DNA of 64,000 bases from Halorubrum lacusprofundi ATCC 49239. Lineage in GTDB: Archaea; Halobacteriota; Halobacteria; Halobacteriales; Haloferacaceae. The notes under the pieces were generated by a model. That model was not told the origin of the DNA and searched no databases. It saw nothing but the letters and a program-made list of their open reading frames with translations. This document shows positions 49,967 through 64,000 of this stretch, in pieces. The stretch lies in contig NC_012030.1 of the NCBI RefSeq assembly GCF_000022205.1, forward strand, positions 186,001 to 250,000. The letters are read 5' to 3'. The position numbers were made by a program, and so were the translations under genes. Within the stretch, counting starts at the first letter, position 1, and the number at the start of each line of letters is the position of its first letter.

Positions 49967-50407
49967 GGGGAGAACGGCCACGGTAGAGTATCATTATCAG
50001 AGTCGGAATCGGGTGACTTCGATCGATTCTAGCCGGAACGACAACGAGAAGACCGTTCAGGACAGTTCACGGTTTTTTCCGACAATAAGATACCGTTTCC
50101 TGCGGTTAAGAGGAGTCTAACAAAGATGGTTGCTAAGATACCTGATTACCGTCGCGGACCCGCCGTCCGACCGTCCGTCGACTATACAGGAGAATAGGCG
50201 ACGTAAATGATGTCGTCGTGTCGTATCCCGTCGCTACAACCACGCCGAATCCGACGATGCAAACCAGGGGACGCCACCGTCGACGGAAAGGAGGACTTAC
50301 GACCCACGATGACCTCGCGTCCGTGGGCGTTGGCACTCCGTACCGGACTTCGACGGCGTCCGCAATGGGGGGGAGCATCGTGCACCCAGCGAACGAGCAC
50401 ACAATGA
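49967..50407. other. Intergenic region flanking the insertion sequence
   Basis: About 440 bases without a supported gene; a frame at 50218-50436 runs into the insertion sequence and may be a fragment. Confidence 0.35.
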
Positions 50408-50525
50408 TCAGTACCTCACAAAGCATCCTCGGCTAGCTGTTTCTGCGGCCTGAGTTCTGTGTCGAAGCGGTTGTACTGACGGTCTCGACGAGAGAATTAC
50501 GGACGGATCGACGGAGAGCTGTCGC

Positions 50526-50552
50526 TGTCGGCGGCGGTCAGCCGCCGACGCG
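50526..50552. repeat. GC-rich hairpin inside the IS left end
   Basis: GTCGGCGGC-GGTCA-GCCGCCGAC-like stem just inside the terminal repeat, past the transposase stop; may terminate transcription. A matching hairpin lies near 51624-51657. Confidence 0.5.
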
Positions 50553-50593
50553 ACAGCGTCGCCACTCACTCCGCTGGCTTGCTCGGTCGGTGG

Positions 50594-51460
50594 TTAGCGG
50601 TGGAATCGGTCGTCAGGTGGCCGATTCGCGGGGACGGCCCGACGCACCGCGAGGGCCGTCCACGCAGCTCGTCGAATCATATTGACGAACTCCTTGTACG
50701 GCCACCACCAGAGGCGACGCCCGCCTCGGCGGGGCGTCGCCACATACTCGTAGTGAAGGTACCGCCAGACGTTCTGTAAGAGGAGACTCACCACCACGTA
50801 CAGCAGCCGTACCGTTGGATCTCGTGTTGTCGTTGTCGCTATCGCTTGCTCAAACAAGCGATAGCTTGACTCGATACCGAAGCGTTTCGAGTAGTGGTAT
50901 CGAGCGTCCCGTGGTGAGTCGATGAACGGCGCGTCAGCGGCGTAGCCGTGACGCGCCACACCGTTCTCGTCATACTTCCCATTTAGGTACGTACAGTCGA
51001 TGTAGACGGGAAAATCGACGGTCCAGCTGTGACCGTCGAGTTTCCCCGTCAGATCATGCTGAATGACGCGACTCCATCCTTCCGAGAGCTCTTGCTGAAT
51101 CGCCTCACCCCACCGGATGATCGGGATCACGTACGCGTAATTGTGCGCCTGAAGCAGCGTGAGACACTTACTGTCGTAGAATCCGCGATCAAGGTAGACG
51201 GCCTTGACCCCGGCGTCAAGGCCGTCGAGGACACCGAAGAACTCAGCGAGGACACTACTTGCGGTATCGCCGTCTTTGAGACGGCGTACCGCCAGCGTGT
51301 AGCGTTTGTTCTTCACACGCGCGTAGAGTGTGGCATAGGCGTGGAACGCAGTGGTTCCACGCTTCGCTACCGAGTGATAGAGGCCGTCTGTGTCGTCTTC
51401 GTCACCGTAGTAGGGCCGCAGGTGGAGGTCTGCGCAGACCTCCACCTGTTCGGGGAGCAA
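50594..51460 (-). CDS. IS4-like (ISH3-related) transposase
   Basis: A 288-residue frame with a TTG start at 51460, but the same frame stays open upstream to a TGA inside the right terminal repeat (about 51700). Upstream codons read TVLYHLRTKFEPERLERVA, which looks like genuine transposase sequence. No ATG or GTG begins it. Catalytic residues: DLHLRPYYGDED (first Asp), AVYLDRGFYDSK (second Asp), FGIESSYRLFEQA (Glu). ATPRRGGRRLW at the end matches the transposase at 3220. The real start may be a rare codon within the terminal repeat. Confidence 0.75.
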   Translation of the reverse strand: MLPEQVEVCADLHLRPYYGDEDDTDGLYHSVAKRGTTAFHAYATLYARVKNKRYTLAVRRLKDGDTASSVLAEFFGVLDGLDAGVKAVYLDRGFYDSKCLTLLQAHNYAYVIPIIRWGEAIQQELSEGWSRVIQHDLTGKLDGHSWTVDFPVYIDCTYLNGKYDENGVARHGYAADAPFIDSPRDARYHYSKRFGIESSYRLFEQAIATTTTRDPTVRLLYVVVSLLLQNVWRYLHYEYVATPRRGGRRLWWWPYKEFVNMIRRAAWTALAVRRAVPANRPPDDRFHR

Positions 51461-51775
51461 TTCATCGAGATACTTTCGCAGGAGCGTGTTAGCGACTCGT
51501 TCGAGCCGTTCCGGCTCGAACTTCGTCCGAAGATGGTAGAGGACCGTGTTCCCAGCGGGTGAGTTCTGGCTCGACGCACAGAGCGTAGAGACAGAGGTCC
51601 TCGTCGGCGCTTGCGCCGACGGGACCTCTGTCGCGTCGGCGGCGGTCAGCCGCCGACGCGACAGCTCTCCGTCGATCCGTCCGTAATTCTCTCGTCGAGA
51701 CCGTCAGTACAACCGCTTCGACACAGAACTCAGGCCGCAGAAACAGCTAGCCGAGGATGCTTTGTGAGGTACTGA

Positions 51776-52097
51776 GACTTGCTCACGGGTATTGTGTATC
51801 TTAACTCCATCTCCCATTTCTGGCACTGATCGGATTGGCTATGTTGACTAAGAGCTAACTGCAGCGGGGCCACACGCAGTCACTGGAAGCGGAGCCAGTG
51901 GCTGATTTGATGCTAGCACCGAAACGATTTATTTTCCTATTAGACGTCTGGCTATGTTCGAGACATGATGCCTCCGGCAAAACACCCAACAACCACTGGA
52001 TCCAGTGGCCCCATCCAATCCAGTGACTCCATATTGACCGACAATTCGGAGTAAGCGCGCAACCACTAAACACGGAACGGCCTCGGCTCTATTTGCA
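51776..52097. other. Intergenic region at the start of the lower-GC segment
   Basis: About 320 bases. It contains two AGTCACTG/CAGTGACT octamers (51878 and 52021) and no supported gene. Confidence 0.45.
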
Positions 52098-52394
52098 ATG
52101 GGTAACATTTCGGAGAAAGCAGCTAATTGGGAAGATGAAATTGACTATCGCTGCCCAAAGTGCGGATCCAAGAATTTCTGGCACGAATGGTTAAAATTTG
52201 AAACTGTGAGGTTTCCGAACAAGAGCCATAAGAATGTGAGCTACGTCCCCAGGGATTCAAGACCGCCTGCAGCGACCCACGTGGGATGCAACCGCTGTGA
52301 TGCACAGATCGTCAAAGATGGCGAATTCGTTGCTGGTAAGTCACGCCCAGTCGAGGAAGTCCGTGAAGAGCACCGCTGTCTCGACGAACACTGA
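52098..52394 (+). CDS. Zinc-ribbon protein of unknown function
   Basis: A 98-residue protein. DYRCPKCGSKNFWHEW near residue 17 and THVGCNRCDAQIVKDGEFV near residue 60 form two CxxC knuckles of a zinc ribbon. Between them is a basic stretch (RFPNKSHKNVSYVPRD). It may bind nucleic acid. No family name recognised; it opens the plasmid-like segment. Confidence 0.65.
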   Translation: MGNISEKAANWEDEIDYRCPKCGSKNFWHEWLKFETVRFPNKSHKNVSYVPRDSRPPAATHVGCNRCDAQIVKDGEFVAGKSRPVEEVREEHRCLDEH

Positions 52395-52440
52395 ATCTCA
52401 TCGATTATTTCTCTGCGTCGGCAGGTATCGTCGCTGCTAC

Positions 52441-52450
52441 GGTTTATAAG
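52441..52450 (+). promoter_or_regulatory. TATA-like box for 52473-52973
   Basis: GGTTTATAAG lies 23-32 bases before the GTG at 52473. This spacing supports the GTG as the leaderless start. Confidence 0.55.
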
Positions 52451-52472
52451 GGAGTGTGCAGTTTGATTAGTT

Positions 52473-52973
52473 GTGATTATCAACATCATTGACCGAATTA
52501 AAGTAGAACTCTCACAAGAAACCACTCAGCGGCTTCAGAAGTGTCACAACGATCAGGATTCGGTTGATGATCTGATCACTGATCTCCTTGACGACACTCG
52601 CAATTCCGTCACGCTAACGGAATTCACCGACCTGCTCGTTGATGCAGTAGATCCCGATCAGATCGCCCTCTATGAAGACTTTTCCAGTCTTCTGTTCGTC
52701 GTGAACACCACGTCAACGGAAGAAAAATTGGAGGCTGCTGTAGAAGAAATTGATGCGGTAGAGATTGATGATGCCCAGTTCAGCTTCGATGTGATAGTCG
52801 ATCCTGACGGTCCGCAGGATCTTGGGCGAATTTCCCTCTACACCACAGTTGAACTGACGGAAGTGAGTGGGAAAGGTATTGAAGATAGTGTCAAGCAACC
52901 TGTTTCACGTGAGGAGGGTGTCAAGAAGGTTGAAGAATGGGTTCGGAGTAGCGCAGAGCTGAAGTCGCTGTGA
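52473..52973 (+). CDS. Hypothetical protein with RHH-like N-terminus
   Basis: A 166-residue acidic protein, start GTG 52473 supported by a TATA-like box 27 bases upstream. The N-terminal RIKVELSQETTQRLQKCHND then SVDDLITDLLDD looks like a ribbon-helix-helix or short coiled region. The middle is alpha/beta (SSLLFVVNTTSTEEKLEAAV). No family recognised. It belongs to the lower-GC segment. Confidence 0.6.
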   Translation: MIINIIDRIKVELSQETTQRLQKCHNDQDSVDDLITDLLDDTRNSVTLTEFTDLLVDAVDPDQIALYEDFSSLLFVVNTTSTEEKLEAAVEEIDAVEIDDAQFSFDVIVDPDGPQDLGRISLYTTVELTEVSGKGIEDSVKQPVSREEGVKKVEEWVRSSAELKSL

Positions 52974-53034
52974 ATTGCCTGAGTCATTGAAACGGTAGTA
53001 GCCAGTCGTTTTCTGGTAGCAGTCTCGCAAAACC

Positions 53035-53370
53035 TCATTCGGCCTTTCTGCTGTTCTCACAGATATCGAGACACGAGAGTAACTCTCGGAGTGCAGACTC
53101 TGGCTCAATTTCTCCCAAGTCAACCATTAGCGGGGTGCCCTCTATCGGCACAGTGTACATCGCTTCCATCGTTTGCTCTTGGAACCCGAAATCTTGGAGA
53201 TCGAGCACGCACTCGACTCGGTAGTCCGGATCGATCTCTAAGACCGCGAGACGTTTTCCGTGGGGTCCTTTGTCTCGTTCGGCGATGTACAGGCTTGCAG
53301 CGTATCCTGCAGTGACTGCGTCCTTGATCTGTACGAGTGGTGGGATTTGGGCTTCAATTTGTGATGTCAT
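53035..53370 (-). CDS. Hypothetical protein
   Basis: A 111-residue protein starting MTSQIEAQIPPLVQIKDAVT. Methionines at 53385, 53373 and 53370 are all possible starts; 53370 (ATGACATCACAA) begins the part with regular structure. KRLAVLEIDPDYRVECVLDL and PLMVDLGEIEPESALRELLS suggest an alpha/beta protein. No family recognised and no coupled neighbour. Confidence 0.55.
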   Translation of the reverse strand: MTSQIEAQIPPLVQIKDAVTAGYAASLYIAERDKGPHGKRLAVLEIDPDYRVECVLDLQDFGFQEQTMEAMYTVPIEGTPLMVDLGEIEPESALRELLSCLDICENSRKAE

Positions 53371-53476
53371 CATATATTGATCCACGATCTTGTAACTTAA
53401 ATCCTCGATAGAAAATAACTAACATGGGACCATGGCTCTATTCAGTTTCAACAGCGCAGTAATCGGGTTTCTTCCC

Positions 53477-53597
53477 CAGGTTTAAGATCAGCAGTTGACC
53501 TCAATAACACGGGGTGGTAGATCCCTGGTTGGGGTTCTGTAGCCCCGGATAAGTGGCACGAGCATCTTTCAAGACCGCTCATATCCATCTGAGAAGA
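53477..53597 (+). ncRNA. Candidate noncoding element, copy 1
   Basis: About 120 bases similar to 62012-62129. Shared blocks in order: GGTTTAAGA (TATA-like), GGTAGATC, CTGGTTGGGGTTCTG versus CTGATTGAGTTTCTG, CGAGCATCTT and ATCCATCTGAGAA. The intervening bases vary and the conserved part has no common reading frame, which points to an RNA or protein-binding element rather than a gene. Confidence 0.4.
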
Positions 53598-53735
53598 TTC
53601 TATACGAATCCTGTTGAAATTCAGTTTCGTCAGCATTTGCAGCCAGTGACGGGGGGGATTACACACGGCAAGTCTAATCTATCTATAATTGACTTGCCTG
53701 ATCTAACCCGGCAACTTTCACCCACACTGTCCACG

Positions 53736-54470
53736 CTAGCCGTCTTCGCGTTCCAAAATCACGGTATCGACTGATGGGTAGAATAATCGCCGCTTGAGTC
53801 GATCATACCGACTCCGATCGACGATTTCCTCATACGTCTCGCTTCGGCGTCGAAACTCATCCTCGCCGAGTTGGTTGAGTGCATATCGTTCCGCACGGAG
53901 TTCCTCTTTGAATTTCACCCGACAGAACAACCACGAAAAGACGGTTGACAAACACAGCGAGAGAACCAGCAGTCCAATCACTTGTGGTATGGGGTTCGTT
54001 GCCGCAAACAAGCCGAACACAACTACGAATCCAACACTCACCCCAGCAGCTAAGAAGGTCAACGTTGTCCCGAGAAGGAACCACACCAGATTTATTCGAC
54101 TCCGAGCTGCGTGTCCCCGCTCATGGAGAAAGATGTACTCTACAACGTCTTGTGGGTATCGCTCAGTAAGATTCTCGTTTAATCTGATGGTGTTGAACAC
54201 TGTGGCTTTCGCCGGAGCACGCATGATGTCGGCTGGTATCCAGTATACATGCTCCGAGACTCCTGCGGCTTCAATTTCCGACTGCCTACCGATGTATGCA
54301 GATGGGAGTACTGAAATCTGGAGTAGACGCAATATGTCTTTTCTCACTCTACTCGATAGAACGCTCGTGGTATATGAAAATTCTTTGTGAGATTGGAAGT
54401 GACTGTTCACTACAGGCGCTCTGTATTCAGCATAGCCCGCTAAACCATCAGTTACTGAGGATTCCAACAA
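53736..54470 (-). CDS. M48-like membrane metalloprotease
   Basis: A 244-residue protein. VVEYIFLHERGHAARSR near residue 110 holds the HExxH zinc motif, and KEELRAERYALNQLGEDEF near residue 190 holds the third-ligand Glu of M48-type peptidases. Two hydrophobic hairpin helices lie between. The only start available is a TTG doublet at 54470, and another frame without a start precedes it, so the 5' end may be altered. It likely degrades membrane proteins or peptides. Confidence 0.68.
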   Translation of the reverse strand: MLESSVTDGLAGYAEYRAPVVNSHFQSHKEFSYTTSVLSSRVRKDILRLLQISVLPSAYIGRQSEIEAAGVSEHVYWIPADIMRAPAKATVFNTIRLNENLTERYPQDVVEYIFLHERGHAARSRINLVWFLLGTTLTFLAAGVSVGFVVVFGLFAATNPIPQVIGLLVLSLCLSTVFSWLFCRVKFKEELRAERYALNQLGEDEFRRRSETYEEIVDRSRYDRLKRRLFYPSVDTVILEREDG

Positions 54471-54676
54471 AGCCTGATCTTCTTTTTTGCGATTGCGTCT
54501 GCCACCAATTCGCGTCTGTACCTCAGTAGCGACTTCTCCCGTTCGATGGCGTCTGGGATCTCGTCGGTGATGTCGCGGCGTAGCTGCTCAAGTTCCTCGT
54601 GGGTGTGTTCTTCGGCGAGCCTTCGGACTTCTTCGCGGCGGCTCCACTCCTCGTCGGTTATGACGTGTGTATGCGT
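54452..54676 (-). pseudogene. Gene remnant without a start codon
   Basis: An open frame ending TAA 54452 reads ITDEEWSRREEVRRLAEEHT and then EELEQLRRDITDEIPDAIER and ends KKKIRLCWNPQ. It looks like the helical end of a haloarchaeal protein, but no ATG, GTG or TTG opens it. It overlaps the first codons of the M48-like gene in another frame. It may be a truncated gene or a frameshifted 5' extension. Confidence 0.35.
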
Positions 54677-55212
54677 GTGCGCCGAATAACACCCTGCGTC
54701 AGTGACTCGGAACAGGCGACGTCAACGTAGCGCGTGTCTTGTGTCTCTCAGGAGGGCGCTTCCTACGGTTTCGCATAACAGCGATACGGCAATTTCAGCC
54801 CAGCATCTTTAGGAGATTCAATTCCCGTCCTCATTATCCCCATCCACTATCCGAATTCATCATCCGCATCGCCCATCTCCACACCTTATCCGGGTTCATC
54901 ATTCGACTTCATTATCTCCCAATTCCACCTATTCTTCCTTCTTCACCGAGTCCACCTGTTTCGCCTACTCCATTTATACGACTATTTTGACAATCACACC
55001 GATTCCAGTGACTCTCCACCATGAGCAGCTCGCAGGGCACAAATCATTGGACACCACCCGGTCATACGTCAGTGACGACCGGGACGCCACCCTCAAACAC
55101 GCCGACCAATTCAACTAACCCTCCCAGAGTCACTGGCCAGTGACTCACGAATCAACACCGCACCTGAAAACAGAACGCTGTCGACGCTCCCAGAGTCACT
55201 GACCGCCTCGGT
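54677..55212. other. Intergenic region with a G-poor low-complexity tract
   Basis: About 540 bases without a gene. Bases 54814-54995 of the plus strand are G-poor and quasi-repetitive (ATTATCCCCATCCACTATCC, TTCATCATCCGCATCG), resembling a degenerate form of the 60021 tandem repeat. Five AGTCACTG/CAGTGACT octamers occur here (54702, 55006, 55128, 55138, 55194). Confidence 0.5.
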
Positions 55213-57582
55213 CTACTCCGCAGACACCGACTCCGATTCCGACTCGTCCGGAAGACGCGACTCCCAATCAGTTTCATCCGACCAGTAACGCTGATCCAGA
55301 CTCTCATCAAACTCGGTGTACTCACGCATATCCACGCGCAGCACACCGGGAACCGGATCACGTTGTGATTTCTTCGTCTCCTCAACGATAACCCACTCCC
55401 CATCTTCGTCATTCACTGCCGACTCATACTCATACACCGCCCTCGCAACCCTCTCACGAATCGACTCAGCATCATCAACTAAATCACTGTGAGAACACAT
55501 CCAGTTCACATTACCAGCACTATACTTCGAATACCGACTAATTGCCTGCTCTAACGCTGCCTTATAGATGGTGCCCCCATCCTGGTAATAATCAGGCACC
55601 ACATCCAGAGACATCTCAGACACCGCAGCGTAGGCTTCATCGCGGTCCTCAATCTCATCCAGATCCAGTCGCTCAACAATCTCAACTATCGACATAGAGT
55701 ACTTAGCCCTCTTTACGGCTGTACTCACACCGCTTGCCGTTGGCAGATCTTTCCGTCGAGAGTGGAACTCGCTAACGGGTAGCGAAATATCGCTCGCTTC
55801 CTCCTTCACCGCATCTGGAAGATCAGAGACGAATTCCTTATAATCATCAACAATCGCGTTGACGCTGTCCCGATACATCGGAGAGTCATCCATCTCAGCG
55901 ACCTCCAAAACGCGCATCGTTCGCTGTGCCCACGTTTCCTCCTTCTCTTCAGCGATCGGCACCTCGCGCTCGACAGCTACCTCTAATGCTTCACTGTGCC
56001 GTTCTTCAGCCGTGGATACCGCATCATCAATCCCGGCCATGACCTCGCGGACATCCGTGTCATACGTCGTGTTCTCCTCTACGAGACGCCGTGCGGTTTC
56101 TCCAAGCTCCTCAATCTGATCGAGAACATCCTCGTTCTCCGCCACAGACTTTTGCCCATTGAACGCGGTGTTCATCTCCCGCATCTCCGCAGTCACTGCC
56201 TCACCCGCAGTCACTGCCGCGTCCGACACCGCCGCATCAATCTCAGACATGACATCGCCAACATCTACGTCAGCCATGTCATCTACATACGAATCAACCA
56301 TCTTCTTCGCTTTCTCCCCACCATCCACAATCTCGGACAGGGACTCCTCAACACCCTCTACATCATCTGCGTCGCCGACAACCGATGTCATCACCCGTAA
56401 CTCATCAGCCGCTGCCTCGCCCGCAACTACCCCGGCCTCAGACACAACTACATCGATCTCAGACAGGATGTCGCTGACATCCGTGTCTTCCAGCGTGTTC
56501 TCAGCCAGATCATCCCGAACATCATCCGCCGTGTCCGAGATCCGATTCATAACCTTACGGATCTCGTGCAACCCATCCACATCATCAAACTCGCTGAACA
56601 TCCGCCGCAGCTCATCCACGCGAAGCCTCGCAGACTCCACCGTCGACTCCGACACCTCCTGCTCCCGTTTCTGCTTCAGATTAGCAAGATACGGAGAGAA
56701 ATCCCCATCCATCTCTGAGAATCTGTCACCGATATAATCTATACTGCCATTCTCATCCAGATAATATGCATAACCGACAGCATCCGTATAAGCAGAATCA
56801 ATCGTAGAGAGCGAACTCGCGGACTCAATCGTGTCTATTTTTGAGTTAATCCTCGTGCCGACCGCCGTAAAAGCGTCCATTGCCGTGTCTCTGTCCCCGA
56901 TGTACTTCGAATCGTCAAACGGATGCTGTACCACAGCCTCCTCAATTTCGGTGGAGAATCCATTAGATTCCATGTAGTTGCGCGTCCAACCGAGATCATC
57001 AGCCACCACATCCACCAGCTGACTACCCTTTACTGCACCCATCTCCCGATACGCCAGTACACCCCTCGTGAGCGCAACCGCGTGTGTCATCCCTTGTGGG
57101 CGATGATCCGAGTCAACGTGATCCGGGTTTAGTTTCGGCACGAAACGGGCGCTGTGGTCGGCCCACTCCGCCCACTGCTTCAGCGCCTCGCGGGACAGTA
57201 CATCATCGCGGCCATCAGGCGTCATTGCGTCCGGTAGTTCGTCTGCATCCGCATCGTAATTCGATGAAATCATAGCCATCTCATCAGTCACGCCCTCCGT
57301 GACTGCACTGAACTCCGATTCGTCGCTGGACGTGGAGCCGCCGTGATTATGAGACCGGGTACTGCCGGAATTTTGGATCGCAACCAGCAGGTCGTGGTTA
57401 GTCACACCGGATTCTCCCGACTCATCTGGGCCAGATACGTCGACCTCGGTGATCAGCTTGCCGTGAGCCACAGACGCCTCCATACAGTTACGGAGCGCCC
57501 CAGAGCGCGACGAGTCGATGATCGAATCAAAGTTGTTGACCAGTTCTTCATCAGCTTCAAACCTGACTTGTTTATCCGTCAT
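55213..57582 (-). CDS. Large acidic coiled-coil protein next to candidate origin
   Basis: A 789-residue protein from ATG 57582, supported by a TATATAA box 24-32 bases upstream; no family recognised. The first ~45 residues (MTDKQVRFEADEELVNNFDS) look like a ribbon-helix-helix. Residues ~365, ~436 and ~506 begin three diverged ~71-residue repeats: DVSDILSEIDVVVSEAG, DVGDVMSEIDAAVSDAA and DVREVMAGIDDAVSTAE. The rest is helical. The repeat-rich, AT-rich DNA lies directly upstream, as in haloarchaeal RepH-type replicons, so a replication or partition role is a reasonable guess but not shown. Confidence 0.6.
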   Translation of the reverse strand: MTDKQVRFEADEELVNNFDSIIDSSRSGALRNCMEASVAHGKLITEVDVSGPDESGESGVTNHDLLVAIQNSGSTRSHNHGGSTSSDESEFSAVTEGVTDEMAMISSNYDADADELPDAMTPDGRDDVLSREALKQWAEWADHSARFVPKLNPDHVDSDHRPQGMTHAVALTRGVLAYREMGAVKGSQLVDVVADDLGWTRNYMESNGFSTEIEEAVVQHPFDDSKYIGDRDTAMDAFTAVGTRINSKIDTIESASSLSTIDSAYTDAVGYAYYLDENGSIDYIGDRFSEMDGDFSPYLANLKQKREQEVSESTVESARLRVDELRRMFSEFDDVDGLHEIRKVMNRISDTADDVRDDLAENTLEDTDVSDILSEIDVVVSEAGVVAGEAAADELRVMTSVVGDADDVEGVEESLSEIVDGGEKAKKMVDSYVDDMADVDVGDVMSEIDAAVSDAAVTAGEAVTAEMREMNTAFNGQKSVAENEDVLDQIEELGETARRLVEENTTYDTDVREVMAGIDDAVSTAEERHSEALEVAVEREVPIAEEKEETWAQRTMRVLEVAEMDDSPMYRDSVNAIVDDYKEFVSDLPDAVKEEASDISLPVSEFHSRRKDLPTASGVSTAVKRAKYSMSIVEIVERLDLDEIEDRDEAYAAVSEMSLDVVPDYYQDGGTIYKAALEQAISRYSKYSAGNVNWMCSHSDLVDDAESIRERVARAVYEYESAVNDEDGEWVIVEETKKSQRDPVPGVLRVDMREYTEFDESLDQRYWSDETDWESRLPDESESESVSAE

Positions 57583-57604
57583 ATTCGTGTTTATTTCATA
57601 TCCA

Positions 57605-57614
57605 CTTATATACC
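57605..57614 (-). promoter_or_regulatory. TATA box of the 789-aa gene
   Basis: On the minus strand GGTATATAAG ends about 24 bases before ATG 57582, an almost ideal haloarchaeal leaderless promoter. Confidence 0.65.
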
Positions 57615-57716
57615 TTTCATAGAATGATACCAAAATTGTACCAAACTCAGAAAGATCAAACAAAAACCAAGAGCGAACTGATCAACCATCCCACACAACT
57701 GAATCCCCACCACCAC

Positions 57717-57890
57717 CCAGTGACTCGCCCCAGACACACAGCATTGTACAACACCAATACACCGTCTGAATGAAGGTTCACGCCCCCTATCTCGATTGAG
57801 TCGCTCCTGAAACCCGGAATTGTACAACCCCACCTTCGTTTGTTGACGGCTGTGAGAGTAGGCGAGGCTGACGCCCCCACCCCACCACAC
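57717..57890 (+). repeat. TTGTACAA-pair repeat, unit 1
   Basis: Begins CAGTGACTCGCCCCAGACAC. It has TTGTACAA palindromes at 57744 and 57820 (76 bases apart), and CCCCACCTTCGTTTGTTGAC after the second. Homologous to units 2 and 3. Confidence 0.75.
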
Positions 57891-58023
57891 TCTCACTGAC
57901 CTCTCCCGAAACATAACCTCACACGCACCCACCCAGTTCTCGCGCGCACCCCTACACCCCCAAACCCGTCGTCAATCCTACAGGCGGAATCGTGAGATCA
58001 CGACGGGAAGTCGCTCCCCGACT

Positions 58024-58192
58024 CCAGTGACTCGCCCCAGACACACAGCATTGTACAACCTCAATACGCAGATTGAGAGGACGCTCACGCCCTCTACCCC
58101 GATCTGGTCGCTCCCGAAACCCAGAATTGTACAACCCCACCTTTGTTTGTTGAGTCGTGTGAGAGTAGGCGGGAGTGACGCTCCCCCACAAC
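58024..58192 (+). repeat. TTGTACAA-pair repeat, unit 2
   Basis: Same orientation and layout as unit 1. TTGTACAA at 58051 and 58127, again 76 bases apart, followed by CCCCACCTTTGTTTGTTGAG. Confidence 0.75.
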
Positions 58193-58201
58193 TATACTCC
58201 C

Positions 58202-58246
58202 TTTGTAATAAGAATAAATAATACTTATTACAAAAAGGTTTATATA
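58202..58246. promoter_or_regulatory. AT-rich palindrome and TATA-like tract between the repeat units
   Basis: TTTGTAATAAG (58202-58212) and CTTATTACAAA (58224-58234) are perfect 11-base arms around an 11-base AT-only spacer. TTTATATA follows at 58239-58246. The strong AT-richness between direct and inverted repeat units suits a DNA-unwinding element, or an operator/promoter. Confidence 0.55.
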
Positions 58247-58341
58247 TCCATGTGCCTTAATATTCCGTAAGCCGCCTTTTCTGCAAAGTAGGTGGACGGC
58301 ACGGCCCGTCCACCGACGCCGACCGCGCCACCACCGCCCAG

Positions 58342-58480
58342 CCTCACAGCCGTCAACAAACAAAGGTGGGGTTGTACAAATCGCCACCGTCAAAAAGTGA
58401 AACACGAGAAAGAGGGCGTGTAGACCGACATAACAAGCAGAACGGAGTTGTACAAACCGAGGTACAACCGCGTTACCGTC
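58342..58480 (-). repeat. TTGTACAA-pair repeat, unit 3 (inverted)
   Basis: The reverse complement has the same layout as units 1 and 2: TTGTACAA at 58448 then 58372 (76 bases apart), CACGCCCTCT between them and CCCCACCTTTGTTTGTTGAC after the second. Confidence 0.72.
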
Positions 58481-58808
58481 ACCGAGTTGAGAACCGACAT
58501 TTCCCACCGACAGATGCCACCCGTCAGAACCGAAAACCAAGAGATTGAGGGCGTGCAACCCGTGAAAACACGGGAATCGAGGAGTTATCCGGGGTGTGTT
58601 CCGCGAGTCACTGAACTTCAGTGACGCGATCGTCTCTCGGAGCGCGCGCGAGAGCAGTGACTCGTTCACTGATGCGACACTCACACAGTCACTGACGTGT
58701 GGGGTATGTGGATTTTGGTGGCGTGACTGGGTCTGTATTCCGTGTTTCCGTTAGCGTCTCTCGGATTTGGATGGAAGTCTTATACCACGTGATCCGGTAA
58801 CAGTAGAC
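58481..58808. other. Intergenic region to the right of the candidate origin
   Basis: About 330 bases, no supported gene. Contains three AGTCACTG/CAGTGACT octamers (58606, 58655, 58687) and, at 58780-58785, the TATA-like CTTATA of the next gene. Confidence 0.45.
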
Positions 58809-59279
58809 ATGATAAGTGAGTCTGGATTTTACCAGTTACCGAGTGATTGTATCGTGTATCCCGGGTCGATCGACCCGCGTGAGGGAGTGTACAAGCAGTG
58901 GTTCTGTGTGATGCGAGAGAATGGGGACTTCGAGATTCGAACGGGGAAAAGCACGCCCCGGCTCAAGCCTCATCCTCTGGATGATCATATCCGCCCGGGC
59001 GACATCTCTGCTCACGTCCGTCAAGAGGTGATTTATGATTCGGATCCCGTGGACTTCGCAGCAGTGGCTGATGACTGCCACCTCTCGGAGGACTCGTGTG
59101 TGCCACGTGTCTGGGGTGGGCTGCCCGTCGAGATAGCGGAGATGCATTTCGAGACTCCGCACGCGGCTGCGTCGGTGTCCACGCGATTGACTGGGTCGAT
59201 GCGGGAGGATCTGGGTCGGGGTCGTGCGGCACCGCATTTTGATGATATGGAGATCATGCAGTCGTATCTCCCTGAATAG
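58809..59279 (+). CDS. Hypothetical protein
   Basis: A 156-residue protein from ATG 58809 (MISESGFYQLPSDCIVYPGS). CTTATACC sits about 25 bases upstream, so a leaderless transcript is likely and the earlier TTG at 58767 is not used. KQWFCVMRENGDFEIRTGK and HVRQEVIYDSDPVDFAAVAD suggest a compact alpha/beta domain; DRHLS-like HLSEDSCVPRVWGGLPVEI follows. No family recognised. Confidence 0.6.
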   Translation: MISESGFYQLPSDCIVYPGSIDPREGVYKQWFCVMRENGDFEIRTGKSTPRLKPHPLDDHIRPGDISAHVRQEVIYDSDPVDFAAVADDCHLSEDSCVPRVWGGLPVEIAEMHFETPHAAASVSTRLTGSMREDLGRGRAAPHFDDMEIMQSYLPE

Positions 59280-60020
59280 GTCTTGGTGGAGCTGTCTTTC
59301 TGTTCACGAGGTGTTGCTGGTGAGTCTGATTAGGATGCTGTGAGTGGTGTCTGCGGTGCGGTGTGGGGCGACGTGAGTCACTGGCCGTCCTCACGTGTGC
59401 GTGCCCGTGTTCAATAACATGGACAGTGACTCTCAGTCAAAAGCAAGATCCAGATCCCGGGTGAGACGTTTGAATCCGGGAGAATCGGAGGCCTCAGATC
59501 ACGTGGCCAGTTGTTCACTGAGCGGCCAGCAACCCCGATTTCTCTTGGGACTCCACCTATTACGATCAATGACCTTTCTTTCTGCGCGGTGCGCTTGTTC
59601 ATGTATTTGATTAATATAAAATCTGCCGGATTATTGTATGGATGCGTTCAAAACCCGGTTATAATAGACGTAATAGGTAGAACAGGTGGAGTAGGCGTAA
59701 TAGGTAGAACGGGTAGAATAGATGTTGGGCGGCGCACACGGGTGCAGTGACTTTTCCTCCCACCCGTCGTCGACGTTCCAGGGTCACTGAACCAGCTGCA
59801 CCACCGTGGAGAACACGATTGATTGCATGACCGTGCTTGGGGTGTCTAGGTGCCGCGCACACAACGGGGTTCGACGCCGTCCGTGCCAATGTCCACGGGA
59901 CTCGGACGCTCCCCACGGTCGCTACGGCAATATAGCATTCAGCAATGACAGCTACAGCACCTGCTTTTCCGATTCCTGCTCGAAGTCACTGGCAGTGATT
60001 CATCTCCCTGATTTATCTCC
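59280..60020. other. Noncoding stretch with several repeats
   Basis: About 740 bases without a convincing gene. CGTAATAGGTAGAAC occurs at 59669-59683 and 59696-59710 in a C-poor tract (59655-59730). Octamers AGTCACTG/CAGTGACT occur at 59376, 59424, 59745 and 59984. Confidence 0.5.
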
Positions 60021-60280
60021 ATGAATCATCCGAATCGATTATCTCCATGAATCATCCGAATCGATTATCTCCATGAATCATCCGAATCGATTATCTCCAT
60101 GAATCATCCGAATCGATTATCTCCATGAATCATCCGAATCGATTATCTCCATGAATCATCCGAATCGATTATCTCCATGAATCATCCGAATCGATTATCT
60201 CCATGAATCATCCGAATCGATTATCTCCATGAATCATCCGAATCGATTATCTCCATGAATCATCCGAATCGATTATCTCC
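60021..60280 (+). repeat. Ten perfect tandem copies of a 26-bp unit
   Basis: Units start every 26 bases from 60021 to 60255 with no mismatch seen. Each carries ATGAATCATCCG, the palindrome AATCGATT, then ATCTCC. No spacers, so it is not a CRISPR. The array fades into degenerate copies up to about 60430. Perfect identity implies recent expansion or selection. Confidence 0.95.
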
Positions 60281-60662
60281 GTGGATTATCCCGATGGATC
60301 GTCTGATGGTATCATGTCTCTAATTCATCTGAACCCATTATGTCTCTGAACTTCCTCATTCCAAATCACCTCCTCAGTTCCCTGCTCCAAATCCGTATTC
60401 TCTTCCTCATCCTTTACTCTCGCAATAAATCTTCTCTCATCGCCACCTTACTGTCATAACCCGCCTTAGTATGCGAGCGATTCTGACTCGTTACGATCGT
60501 TGACTCATGACCTGTAGGGTATGGGTTGCACGCCGTGATCTACGGCTGAATCGTAGCGCGTTACCGTTGCGCGTTGCTTTGGTGAGCGAGTATTCGCAGC
60601 TCGGTGTGAGTGACTCCCCCGCGCAACTGTTATAAATAATACGTCCGCGCCACAGCTGTAAC
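60281..60662. other. Degenerate repeat edge and promoter region
   Basis: About 380 bases. The first 150 are G-poor, degenerate derivatives of the 26-bp unit (ATTATCCCGATGGATCGTCT, ATTCATCTGAACCCATTATG). The last part holds the promoter of the next gene. Confidence 0.5.
60628..60638 (+). promoter_or_regulatory. TATA box of the wHTH gene at 60663
   Basis: TGTTATAAATA lies 25-35 bases before ATG 60663, a strong leaderless promoter match. Confidence 0.65.
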
Positions 60663-61166
60663 ATGGATTACAATGGCGTAACTCTGGACGGCGATTCCCT
60701 GCGAGCAATAGATGCACTGCATCGACAGGATGATCACCGACTCAACACTTCGGAACTCCGTACACTCCTCGGTATCGAGAGTAACGATCGTGCGCGTCGC
60801 CGAATCGTGAAACTCGGCGACGCCGGACTCGCCGACATCGACGTCGACGATCGAGCGGATACACCCATTCCACCGAAGCGCGCGACACTGACCGACGACG
60901 GCGTGCAGAAAGCGAAGGAATGGGATCTCGACCCTGATTCAACGAACATCCGTTCTCCAGAAGATCGGCTTCAGCGCGTGGAGCGCCGACTGACCGACAT
61001 CAACGAACGTCTTGATGAAATCGAAGCAGCTGCCAACAAGAATACAGAACGAATTCCGGGACTGCTCGAAACTCGGCGCTTGGTCGCGACGCTGAACGAT
61101 TACACCGTTAAGGAATTCGATGCAGATCTTGGAGCGTATTATCCGACAGAATCGCCTTCGGAGTAG
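60663..61166 (+). CDS. Winged-helix protein with C-terminal coiled coil
   Basis: A 167-residue protein. Residues 10-75 form a winged helix (LRAIDALHRQDDHRLNTSEL, RARRRIVKLGDAGLADIDVD). Residues 100-130 are a heptad-like coiled coil (RLQRVERRLTDINERLDEIE). Such proteins are common on haloarchaeal plasmids and viruses. Being next to the 26-bp array makes it a candidate binder of that array, which is inference. Confidence 0.72.
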   Translation: MDYNGVTLDGDSLRAIDALHRQDDHRLNTSELRTLLGIESNDRARRRIVKLGDAGLADIDVDDRADTPIPPKRATLTDDGVQKAKEWDLDPDSTNIRSPEDRLQRVERRLTDINERLDEIEAAANKNTERIPGLLETRRLVATLNDYTVKEFDADLGAYYPTESPSE

Positions 61167-61310
61167 TTCGTCGGCCTTCCATGAGTCACTGTTTTTGTCG
61201 TAGTCACTCCCCGGTTCAGAAGCGTGTGCTGTCTAAAAAAGACAGTCACTGATCGGTGCCAACTCGCAGCAGCTCAGACTCAGTTTTCCCGGGTAGTAGA
61301 GGTCCCACCA

Positions 61311-61454
61311 CAGTCACTGGGACGTATCGTTCAAGTCACGGTTTAAGTAGCAATATGCCATATTTTGGGATGCGCAGGGCGACTCAGTCTGCGGGTTTTG
61401 AGGTTTGCTACCCCGACTGAGTTTAAAACCCGTTACCTGCCAATCCAGATTGCG
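61311..61454 (+). repeat. Duplicated promoter region, copy A
   Basis: Shares long blocks with the reverse complement of 63815-63957: GGGACGTATCGTTCAAGTCA, CGGTTTAAGTAGCAAT, GGCGACTCAGTCT and TTACCTGCCA/TTGCCTGCCA. It includes an AGTCACTG octamer at its outer end. Confidence 0.75.
61419..61427 (+). promoter_or_regulatory. TATA box of 61455-61964
   Basis: AGTTTAAAA lies 28-36 bases before ATG 61455; the equivalent ATTTAAACA stands at the same place in copy B. Confidence 0.55.
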
Positions 61455-61964
61455 ATGAACAAATCAAAATCTAAGCATGTTGACGACGGAATCGTGTGGA
61501 ATAGCGACATCACTATGAGCGACGTCTCTCCTGGTGATGAGATTAATCCCGATCTTGTATCCCGAGGTGCGTTTCCGTTGAGAGATTGCCAGCTGCACGC
61601 TGTCAGCGATCGAAATCGCCTTGATGACACTCACACTCAGATTCTGTGCGATCTCTCAACTGAAACCTACATCTACGCAAACTGTGTCGATCGGCAGAGT
61701 GCTTGGAGCAGGTCTGAAGCAAACTGGACTGTCCGTGATGTGGGATCGCAATTTGAATTGTCTGATGTTGACATCGAAGAGCATCGTGACTACGATCTTA
61801 TCGATGATGACCAAGAGTTCGCAGTTGATGTCCTTCAGCGCGCAATTGATGAGAGCCTATGTGGAAGGGGAGTTCATTCCCTTAGCATTGAGAACGGTAG
61901 GGTCGAAATCAGGAATAACAGACACAACACAGTCATTACGGCAGAATTCAGTCTGACTAACTGA
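61455..61964 (+). CDS. Hypothetical protein with duplicated N-terminal leader
   Basis: A 169-residue protein from ATG 61455. Its first ~35 residues (MNKSKSKHVDDGIVWNSDIT then MSDVSPGDEI) nearly match those of the protein at 63563-63814, at both protein and DNA level, while the bodies differ. The remainder (FPLRDCQLHAVSDRNRLDD, ETYIYANCVDRQSAW) matches no family I know. The TATA box 30 bases upstream supports this start over 61365. Confidence 0.65.
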   Translation: MNKSKSKHVDDGIVWNSDITMSDVSPGDEINPDLVSRGAFPLRDCQLHAVSDRNRLDDTHTQILCDLSTETYIYANCVDRQSAWSRSEANWTVRDVGSQFELSDVDIEEHRDYDLIDDDQEFAVDVLQRAIDESLCGRGVHSLSIENGRVEIRNNRHNTVITAEFSLTN

Positions 61965-62011
61965 TTCTGATTGCAGACTTTCGCGAACTCATTCCCAGTT
62001 AGTTTCTACTT

Positions 62012-62129
62012 GGATTTAAGACCAATAATCGATGTTGGTATCATGGGGCAGGTAGATCTCTGATTGAGTTTCTGTGTCCAGATTAGTGCCCCGAGCATCT
62101 TCCCACGAGCCAGATCCATCTAAGAAAAC
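62012..62129 (+). ncRNA. Candidate noncoding element, copy 2
   Basis: About 118 bases homologous to 53477-53597, with the same TATA-like GATTTAAGA, GGTAGATC, CGAGCATCTT and ATCCATCTAAGAA blocks in order and spacing. It precedes the wHTH gene. Confidence 0.4.
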
Positions 62130-62134
62130 AGAGG

Positions 62135-62163
62135 ATCACGAATCGCTCAGTACAGGGATTTGA
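62135..62163 (+). repeat. 28-bp direct repeat, copy 1
   Basis: TCACGAATCGCTCAGTACAG and following bases recur with few changes at 62565-62593. Each copy precedes a gene by 25-45 bases. Confidence 0.55.
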
Positions 62164-62186
62164 TAGACCACACGATCACTGATCAG

Positions 62187-62498
62187 ATGGTAGAATACAC
62201 GATAGGAACCGTATTACCCAGAGAGAGCGGAGAGAGCAGCAGAATGTATCGTGAGATTTCGTGGGCTGTTCCCGCTGACCCCTATATTCTAGAGGAGTTG
62301 TCTTCGTACGACGGGTGGCAGACCGCGAAAAATCTTTCAATCAATACGGGCTTCAGCCACCAGTGGACCGGTCAGCGTTGTAAAGTGTTTGTTGAACACG
62401 GATTGGCTAAGCGCCACGAAACTGAACCTGCGTATCGAATTACTGAACGCGGAAAGAAGGTAGTTGCTGGCGAAATTGCGTCGGACTCTCTTGATTAA
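62187..62498 (+). CDS. Virus/plasmid-type winged-helix protein
   Basis: A 103-residue frame from ATG 62187; ATG 62244 (MYREISWAVP) is an alternative that begins at the conserved part, and TTG 62160 is possible. YILEELSSYDGWQTAKNLSI then GFSHQWTGQRCKVFVEHGLA is the winged helix common in haloarchaeal phage and plasmid proteins; YRITERGKKVVAGE is the wing. Probably a small repressor. Confidence 0.72.
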   Translation: MVEYTIGTVLPRESGESSRMYREISWAVPADPYILEELSSYDGWQTAKNLSINTGFSHQWTGQRCKVFVEHGLAKRHETEPAYRITERGKKVVAGEIASDSLD

Positions 62499-62564
62499 TT
62501 CATAGGGAGTTATAGAACGGTTAGCACACCTGTCTTCTAACTCACTGATTTGGTCAAGAGAGGT

Positions 62565-62593
62565 CTCACAAATCGCTCAGTATAGGCATCTGA
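62565..62593 (+). repeat. 28-bp direct repeat, copy 2
   Basis: TCACAAATCGCTCAGTATAG and following bases match 62135-62163; it lies upstream of the lipoprotein promoter. Confidence 0.55.
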
Positions 62594-62606
62594 CATCAAG
62601 AGAATG

Positions 62607-62614
62607 TATTTATC
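62607..62614 (+). promoter_or_regulatory. TATA-like box of the lipoprotein gene
   Basis: GTATTTAT is 23-30 bases before ATG 62637. Confidence 0.45.
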
Positions 62615-62636
62615 AGTCCAAGAGTAACGCTGTAAC

Positions 62637-63122
62637 ATGCGTCGAAGAGCCCTCCTCTCGCTACTCGGGACCGTAGGTATTGGTAGCTTGGCAGGCTGTT
62701 TAGCTGATTTCTCGACGATGACCACGCCTGAAATTGTATCGAGCAGTATTGAGGCCCAAAATCGGAGCTGTAGTGATACCCCGAATGAATCAGCAACGAT
62801 AGCAAGTAATTCAGATGACGGGACACGAATAGAGGTCGAGGGGAGCATCGCAGTCCCACGGATCGCTGATAGATTATACGTACAAACTCAGAATGGCGTC
62901 GGAGAAAGCGATCGAGACAACGCAGATATGACGGTTCACATCGATTTTGGCCCTTCCGATTCGCACGAGAACACAGATGTTCCTGAGTGCGAGGGGCAAA
63001 TAGCGTACAACGCGGAAGTCGAGTTTACACACCCTCCGAAGGACGTAATTGTTCGACACACTGTTGAGGGGGGAGGGAAGTATAGGCTGAAAACGATGAC
63101 CACTCAAACTATTACTCAATAA
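62637..63122 (+). CDS. Secreted lipoprotein of unknown function
   Basis: A 161-residue protein. MRRRALLSLLGTVGIGSLAG followed by Cys is a twin-arginine signal with lipobox (LAGC), so it should be Tat-exported and lipid-anchored. The mature part is acidic, with CSDTPNESATIASNSDDGTR and four cysteines in all after the lipid Cys region. The fold appears beta-rich. No family recognised. Confidence 0.72.
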   Translation: MRRRALLSLLGTVGIGSLAGCLADFSTMTTPEIVSSSIEAQNRSCSDTPNESATIASNSDDGTRIEVEGSIAVPRIADRLYVQTQNGVGESDRDNADMTVHIDFGPSDSHENTDVPECEGQIAYNAEVEFTHPPKDVIVRHTVEGGGKYRLKTMTTQTITQ

Positions 63123-63188
63123 GCAGGCCTCATCGACCAGCCGCTTCAGGCGATATATGTCTGAAGAATAGAATTTCAGCAGAGCCCG

Positions 63189-63566
63189 TTATTTCTCAAG
63201 TACCTCCCTCGCCTCATGGACAGGGTCGGACACATCTTTTCGCCACTTACCATCTTCCTGAATCTTCTTGACACTCCGAGCCCCGTTGTCGGCCAGCGTC
63301 GCCAAAGCTGTGCGATCGACTCTAACTGTTGACTCTTCCGTTCGCTCTATCCCGGTCTGTTCACTCATACGGTCCAGCGCAAGTTCGAGGAGCGTGTCGG
63401 CCTCAGCTCGCATGCCGACAACCTCACGGTAGTACTCAGGCTCAAGCTTGACACACAGGCCATGACGACGACCGTACCATCCAGTCCCGACCATGACTCC
63501 ATTGTACTTGTTGAAGACATCGGTCGGGATGCCGTCAACCCAAACTCGCTCAGAGCCGCCCATCAT
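63189..63566 (-). CDS. Hypothetical protein, second gene of an inverted-duplication operon
   Basis: A 125-residue protein overlapping the previous gene's stop (ATGA). MMGGSERVWVDGIPTDVFNK and VKLEPEYYREVVGMRAEADT lead into a helical C-terminus (VHEAREVLEK). No family recognised. Its coupling to 63563-63814 suggests that the two products work together. Confidence 0.6.
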   Translation of the reverse strand: MMGGSERVWVDGIPTDVFNKYNGVMVGTGWYGRRHGLCVKLEPEYYREVVGMRAEADTLLELALDRMSEQTGIERTEESTVRVDRTALATLADNGARSVKKIQEDGKWRKDVSDPVHEAREVLEK

Positions 63567-63814
63567 AGCGTCATCTCACCAGCGGTGGCTCCCGGTGCTG
63601 GGTTGAGTTCCTCGGTGAACACCCAGCGGTCCACGCCAAAATTTTGGACCACCTTCATCGTCTTTTGGTGGTGCGACTCTTCCTCTTCTTCAACGTCAAC
63701 AACAATTTCGTCAAGAGCATCTTCAATTTCTTCACCAGTGGAGATGTCGCTCATAGTGATGTCGCTATTCCACACCGTTTTGTCGTCAGAATCGTTAGAT
63801 TTGGACTGAGTCAT
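63563..63814 (-). CDS. Small acidic protein with duplicated N-terminal leader
   Basis: An 83-residue protein. MTQSKSNDSDDKTVWNSDIT then MSDISTGEEIEDALDEIVVD. The N-terminal third matches the protein at 61455-61964 and a stretch of about 30 bases (GTGTGGAATAGCGACATCAC and the following ten) is identical in both. The rest is different and very acidic (DVEEEEESHHQ). Overlaps the next gene by ATGA. Confidence 0.65.
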   Translation of the reverse strand: MTQSKSNDSDDKTVWNSDITMSDISTGEEIEDALDEIVVDVEEEEESHHQKTMKVVQNFGVDRWVFTEELNPAPGATAGEMTL

Positions 63815-63958
63815 CTACTTTGAGTGGCAGGCAACGGTGTTTAAATCGTTCCGAGGGTTGAGTCTCGAAACCACTAGACTGAGTCGCCACGTACATCCTA
63901 ACATGTGGCACATTGCTACTTAAACCGTGACTTGAACGATACGTCCCACCAGTGACTA
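63815..63958 (-). repeat. Duplicated promoter region, copy B (inverted)
   Basis: Reverse complement matches 61311-61454, including GGGACGTATCGTTCAAGTCA, CGGTTTAAGTAGCAAT and the TATA element ATTTAAACA (about 63839-63847) at the same distance from the ATG. An octamer CAGTGACT (63950) ends it. Confidence 0.72.
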
Positions 63959-64000
63959 CGGCAGGGAACTCGTCAGTCAGTGGCTATTCTGCAGTAGAAA

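Follow-up and report, generated by a model that had tools for sequence, protein, structure and literature searches.

In bacterial iteron plasmids (RepA/RepE types), the sites for the initiator are repeated and adjoin an AT-rich region and the rep gene. In the RepH replicons of phiH1, phiCh1 and pHH1/pNRC100, proposed for haloarchaeal plasmids and viruses, the initiator gene is large. Orc1/Cdc6 origins have inverted ORB sites and an AT-rich core, and lie directly upstream of the initiator gene (PMC3528665, PMC3936714). The Rep-Arvir rolling-circle replicons of betapleolipoviruses are replication modules of tRNA-integrating pleolipovirus-like elements, for which a hairpin has been reported (PMC13107129). 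Several pR1SE-like plasmids have no identifiable replication protein (PMC10818511), as is also the case for part of the 'Epsilonpleolipovirus' genomes (PMC10599561). No published description was found of a replicon in which a ribbon-helix-helix (RHH) initiator is accompanied by a mirrored origin of its own.

Halorubrum lacusprofundi has one chromosome, a secondary chromosome and the megaplasmid pHLAC01, which its laboratory strain ACAM34_UNSW has lost (PMC10544981). The window analysed here is a stretch of 64,000 nucleotides, positions 186,001 to 250,000 of NC_012030.1, hereafter called C3 (431,338 bp, one of three replicons) and taken to be pHLAC01. A block of repeats at window positions 57636-58467 is probably the origin of a mobile-element replicon with the adjacent 789-aa protein as its cognate initiator. 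The features of the block and of related elements are collected in Table 1.

An earlier note on this DNA had described six TTGTACAA sites as three pairs, the first two direct and the third inverted, around an 11-base inverted repeat in AT-only DNA, immediately upstream of the gene for the 789-aa protein. All six sites were present with a start-to-start spacing of 76 bp within each pair, and C3 contains only one further copy (seven in total), at C3:392526. The stated orientation also holds: units 1 and 2 form a 176-bp direct repeat with 81 % identity, and unit 3 is inverted relative to unit 2 (arms 58124-58181 and 58325-58382, 81 %) and to unit 1 (arms 57817-57874 and 58325-58382, 84 %). Units 2 and 3 are separated by an inverted repeat, TTTGTAATAAG (58202-58212) and CTTATTACAAA (58224-58234), which is perfect over 11 bp but AT-rich and not AT-only, with two G/C bases per arm. 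The minus-strand ORF starts at 57582, which places the block directly upstream of the gene, as the note had it. Degenerate sites, TTGTACCA and GGTACAA, are found at the block edges. Every pair also has an accessory box, TCAACAAACAAAGGTGGGG or a close variant of it, beside its inner palindrome on the side facing the core. Going outward from the core, either side begins with the accessory box, followed by a palindrome and, 76 bp further, by a second one.

The total inverted-repeat score of the block was 83, compared with at most 24 in 60 Markov shuffles. Of all 60-bp loci in the 431-kb replicon, the AT-rich core is among the five that melt most easily, and it has the lowest stability within 20 kb. 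Downstream of the TATA-like TTTATATATCC there is a hairpin with 12-bp arms (58288-58299 and 58306-58317), suggesting the possibility of an outward promoter or a short transcript (58239-58317) reading away from the gene. Rfam gave no match in the window, and comparison of the block DNA with plasmids gave only four short matches in Streptomyces/Embleya, judged to be chance.

Table 1 Features of the repeat block, the flanking insertion sequences and the elements carrying related genes (window coordinates unless a contig is named)
Feature	Position	Strand	Basis or remark
789-aa gene, candidate initiator	55213..57582	-	ORF
TATA-like TATATAAG, putative promoter of the 789-aa gene	57605..57612	-	sequence
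Degenerate TTGTACCA, possible autoregulatory site	57636..57643	+	~24 bp beyond the TATA box of the gene
Unit 1: TTGTACAA at 57744 and 57820; accessory box CCCCACCTTCGTTTGTTGA at 57828-57846	57717..57892	+	
Unit 2: TTGTACAA at 58051 and 58127; accessory box CCCCACCTTTGTTTGTTGA at 58135-58153	58024..58199	+	
AT-rich core with 11-bp inverted repeat, candidate unwinding element	58189..58248	.	low duplex stability
TATA-like TTTATATATCC at core edge	58239..58249	+	sequence
Unit 3 (inverted): accessory box TCAACAAACAAAGGTGGGG at 58353-58371; TTGTACAA at 58372 and 58448; GGTACAA at 58461	58325..58467	-	
Insertion-sequence copies	50407-51628; C3 251611-252832 (just past window)		many more on C3
G038 element, 39.2 kb	C25 9730-48980		tRNA-Arg; RHH gene-tRNA proximity at C25 48390-49037
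G362 element, 18.3 kb			tRNA-Val; RHH gene-tRNA proximity at C1 994448-994871
G034 element, 24.0 kb			tRNA-Gln; RHH gene-tRNA proximity at C13 147896-149175
G273 element, 22.9 kb			tRNA-Pro
G111 element, 24.2 kb			tRNA-Pro

A sliding arm-score scan for mirrored repeats over all 431 kb of C3 gave scores of at least 19 only for this block, which was the longest with a score of 34, and for four loci upstream of orc1/cdc6 genes. The latter agree with the four Orc origins predicted for pHLAC01 (PMC3528665). The two kinds of locus are thus the strongest mirrored-repeat loci on C3, and they share inverted sites, an AT-rich core, a position directly upstream of an initiator gene (here a candidate) and G-runs pointing away from the core. 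Unlike the ORB origins, the block adjoins a gene that does not encode an AAA+ Orc1/Cdc6 protein, and its sites are short palindromes in pairs of ~76-84 bp with a sequence that varies by element. The earlier note had likened the layout to iterons. Repeated sites, an AT-rich region and an adjacent candidate rep gene are indeed common to both, but the sites here are palindromes that come in pairs and lie mirrored to either side of the core, and the protein has an apparent RHH start; mirrored palindrome pairs around a core are closer to an ORB origin than to one-sided tandem iterons. GC skew was uninformative for C3, a multi-origin plasmid.

The likeness to ORB origins may extend to a box of the form AAACAAA-n-GGGG, a possible half-ORB which resembles the 3' part of the ORB. 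It occurs three times in C3, twice in the block, and six times in contig C25 of Hrr. saccharovorum DSM 1137 (G038), always in the block of that genome; 25 kb of G326 contain two copies, and these too lie in the block. The boxes are mirrored around the core, and the G-run of the accessory box points away from it, with the same polarity as the matching local oriC1 ORB pair. These boxes in three members would fit an Orc1/Cdc6-dependent origin lying by chance beside an unrelated DNA-binding gene, the host Orc1 being the real initiator. Such an arrangement is very improbable: the block has no full ORB dyad, the AAAC-GGGG gap is longer than in most local ORBs, the boxes are absent from G362, G273, G099, G111, G034 and G334, and no orc gene lies within 30 kb of any relative examined. 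On C3 itself no orc gene directly adjoins the block; the nearest, at 253.0 and 255.6 kb, are separated from it by ~9-11 kb.

The 789-aa protein has an RHH-like N-terminus, a conserved middle region (residues ~110-260) and a long acidic C-terminus. No family in Pfam, NCBIfam or PHROG matched it significantly. The family profile built here matched NikR (RHH; PDB 1q5v) with an E value of 0.0035 at profile positions 4-52, and an AlphaFold model that covered residues 1-264 and was built on an alignment of two sequences placed helices at 12-21 and 24-39, with a mean pLDDT of 35 that is too poor to use. The N-terminus of the family is called an apparent RHH domain here. The middle region, of NPDHV type (EYDPD...LS.dAL...NPdHV...P......lRy), is common to the family and may contain a winged helix. 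Single-sequence searches with the 789-aa protein gave no homologs in genome contigs, PLSDB, phages or viral contigs. One relative, of 480 aa, was obtained from 97 related whole genomes, in G038, and a scan of genome contigs with a three-member alignment likewise found Hrr. saccharovorum only. Profile searches of whole genomes added relatives in G326, G362, G273 and G307 and then ~10 more. Searches of PLSDB by tblastn placed no relative on an extrachromosomal plasmid, and the family profile detected no member in five pR1SE-related plasmids.

The protein and its DNA were also compared with other described replicons. The earlier note had suggested a resemblance to the RepH type, which has in common with the present locus a large initiator gene and a proposed role as replicon of haloarchaeal plasmids or viruses. 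When ORF53 and ORF54 of phiCh1 were compared with the family profile and the 789-aa protein (hmmsearch and phmmer), scores were near 0 bits and the best E value was 0.008, in a one-sequence database; phiCh1 RepH thus has no significant similarity to the family. The region before phiCh1 repH contains no comparable mirrored array, and membership of the RepH type was rejected. A Rep-Arvir replicon was rejected as well, since DUF7845 (PF25227) is absent from the Hrr. lacusprofundi genome and all elements studied and has no similarity to the family profile; a mirrored palindrome array is present here, as opposed to the hairpin reported for those replicons (PMC13107129).

Mirrored repeats were found directly upstream of nine of the 14 family members with upstream DNA, the 789-aa gene included, with best-arm scores of 15-39 and all repeats within 1.2 kb of the start codon. 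None of 15 control genes, which match just the RHH part of the family profile, had a mirrored array (scores 0-13). Random windows of the same regions reached a score of 15 in 5 of 244 cases and a score of 20 in none, and the scores of G273 and G334, only 15 and 17, are near this background. The repeats were absent upstream of the genes of G307, G144, G406, G233 and G129. Given their greater distance, these five members may have lost the repeats or be something else. In the five delimited elements of Table 1, in G326 and in the local C3 tract, the strongest of the mirrored repeats precedes the family gene.

The arrays are 500-1500 bp long and have an AT-rich core in the middle, flanked on each side by up to several units. 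Upstream of the G038 relative, ATCCCATGGGAT palindromes form pairs ~80-84 bp apart, each unit having the box AAACAAAATGTGGGGG. Several units lie beyond the AT-rich core as seen from the gene, and the units between core and gene are inverted. The repeats of G326 are of the TTTGGCCCAA and CATGAGAGTC types, and G362 has an inverted repeat of 48 bp. The arrays of G099 and G111 set three TTACTCAA units against three, their T-runs turned towards the core. The repeat sequences vary between members and the layout is constant, as expected for initiator-specific sites. The features proposed to define a mirrored-array RHH replicon, i.e. a family protein, mirrored repeats directly upstream and an AT-rich core, were all found at the locus studied here.

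RHH proteins also act in partition and regulation, and the sites might form nothing more than a large operator, an autoregulatory or divergent-promoter control region for the protein with the RHH start. The outermost repeat does adjoin the TATA box of the gene in several members, and the G034 array has TATA-like boxes at both ends. The size of the arrays, their several units per side and the AT-rich core in the middle argue against an operator, as do the 15 other genes with RHH-like starts that have no such array and the fact that the comparable loci on C3 are all orc-adjacent; this explanation is quite unlikely. An origin, with the 789-aa protein as initiator, is the reading kept here.

The family genes are linked to mobile elements. 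A tyrosine integrase gene was found within 10 kb in six of eight relatives, for which the binomial probability is ~4e-7 if a chance of 5 % is assumed for each (~10 such genes per genome). Five relatives lie in elements of 18-39 kb that contain an integrase and are bounded by 17-25-nt direct repeats derived from tRNA genes. The G038 element is pR1SE-like, having homologs of both pR1SE gene clusters in conserved order, and the elements of G362 and G111 are pleolipovirus-like, with homologs of the spike, VP1 and NTPase. The RHH gene is ~0.3-1.3 kb from the integration tRNA gene in the G038, G362 and G034 elements, and excision could therefore place it beside the integrase end. The five delimited elements contain no orc gene, and queries with RepH, an MCM, the pR1SE replication candidates and the pR1SE ParA found nothing in the elements. 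The family, its shared layout and its linkage to elements are supported by these computations, and as gene and array recur together in elements without a known replication gene, they are probably the means by which these elements start copying their DNA.

The main rival to the origin reading is a partition site, in which the palindromes would be a centromere and the protein with the RHH start a centromere binder that segregates the element without a role in replication. RHH proteins such as ParG and SegB are typical centromere binders, plasmid centromeres such as R1 parC have mirrored iterons flanking a promoter, and excised elements need stable inheritance. The RHH-like N-terminus and the arrayed sites adjoining the gene are shared with ParG and SegB. 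Those proteins, however, are far shorter and lack the second conserved region, and no adjacent ParA/SegA NTPase was found here. A P-loop scan of the neighbourhoods of the relatives, in the stretches searched, and a query of the elements with the pR1SE ParA gave no ParA-type match, whereas an RHH/ParA partition system has an adjacent ParA/SegA-type ATPase; the sole P-loop ParA-type gene at the present locus is ~15 kb away in the orc module. A partition site would moreover leave the easily melted core unexplained and the delimited elements without a visible replication gene, and it is considered unlikely. The suggestion of the earlier note that the block is an origin beside its initiator gene remains the best-supported reading, strengthened by the relatives, although its comparison with the RepH type fails.

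On C3, the tract at 238-250 kb (window ~52000-64000) has genes in common with the G038 element: a wHTH protein (56 %), a resolvase (74 %) and a 102-aa protein (66 %). The tract is bracketed by two direct insertion-sequence copies, 99.6 % identical over 1.2 kb, and thereby resembles a composite transposon. A dispersed octamer, CAGTGACT, was observed 69 times in the 39-kb G038 element, on both strands, where 2.6 copies would be expected, and the other 43 kb of contig C25 has a single copy. The octamer behaves like an element-wide tag. Its 7-mer AGTGACT is evenly divided between the strands in the G038 element, and in C3 it occurs 2.1 times per kb at 238-250 kb and 0.13 times per kb elsewhere (~16-fold). 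The octamer was not enriched in pR1SE. A weaker similar case is GGCTAGC(C) in G326:C1:1300900-1321600, with ~14 sites limited to the element region. The shared genes and octamer, together with the insertion-sequence flanks, make the tract look like the remnant of a related element that was joined to the megaplasmid.

No integrase was found within 10 kb of the block on C3, and since the orc genes are only ~10 kb away, the module may be idle here; the block may be a secondary or dormant origin in an element remnant beside Orc1/Cdc6 origins. Two further repeats were noted in the surroundings. A 3.5-kb segment that includes the resolvase gene and an insertion sequence is duplicated in inverted orientation (C3 249531-253012 and 310906-314387, 99.97 %), and a tandem repeat of ~26 bp with ~10 units, deduced from self-alignment offsets, lies between the 170-aa and wHTH genes at window 60013-60291 (C3 246013-246291).

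From the sequences we infer the following roles for the protein and the block in binding, melting and initiation. RHH dimers would bind the palindromes, and the arrays on both sides of the core would assemble into a nucleoprotein complex that melts the AT-rich core. Host replisome proteins would then be loaded at the core, MCM and possibly Orc1/Cdc6, the latter via the ORB-like AAACAAA-n-GGGG boxes. The site beside the TATA box of the gene could couple the level of the initiator to copy number.

It is an even question whether these modules represent an undescribed class of archaeal replicon distributed across haloarchaeal families, with an RHH-start initiator of fast-changing specificity that acts on mirrored palindromes to melt a core. 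Such a module would be swapped among plasmids like pR1SE, pleolipovirus-like proviruses and further elements integrated at tRNA genes, and in those without a known replication protein it would supply the initiator that has been missing. The module, present in one pR1SE-like element and in two pleolipovirus-like proviruses, provides a candidate initiator. If the reading is true, it would be another independently evolved archaeal replication start, built like an Orc1/Cdc6 origin with a different initiator. Motif changes between elements could then set incompatibility, and the modules would offer new vector replicons for haloarchaea.
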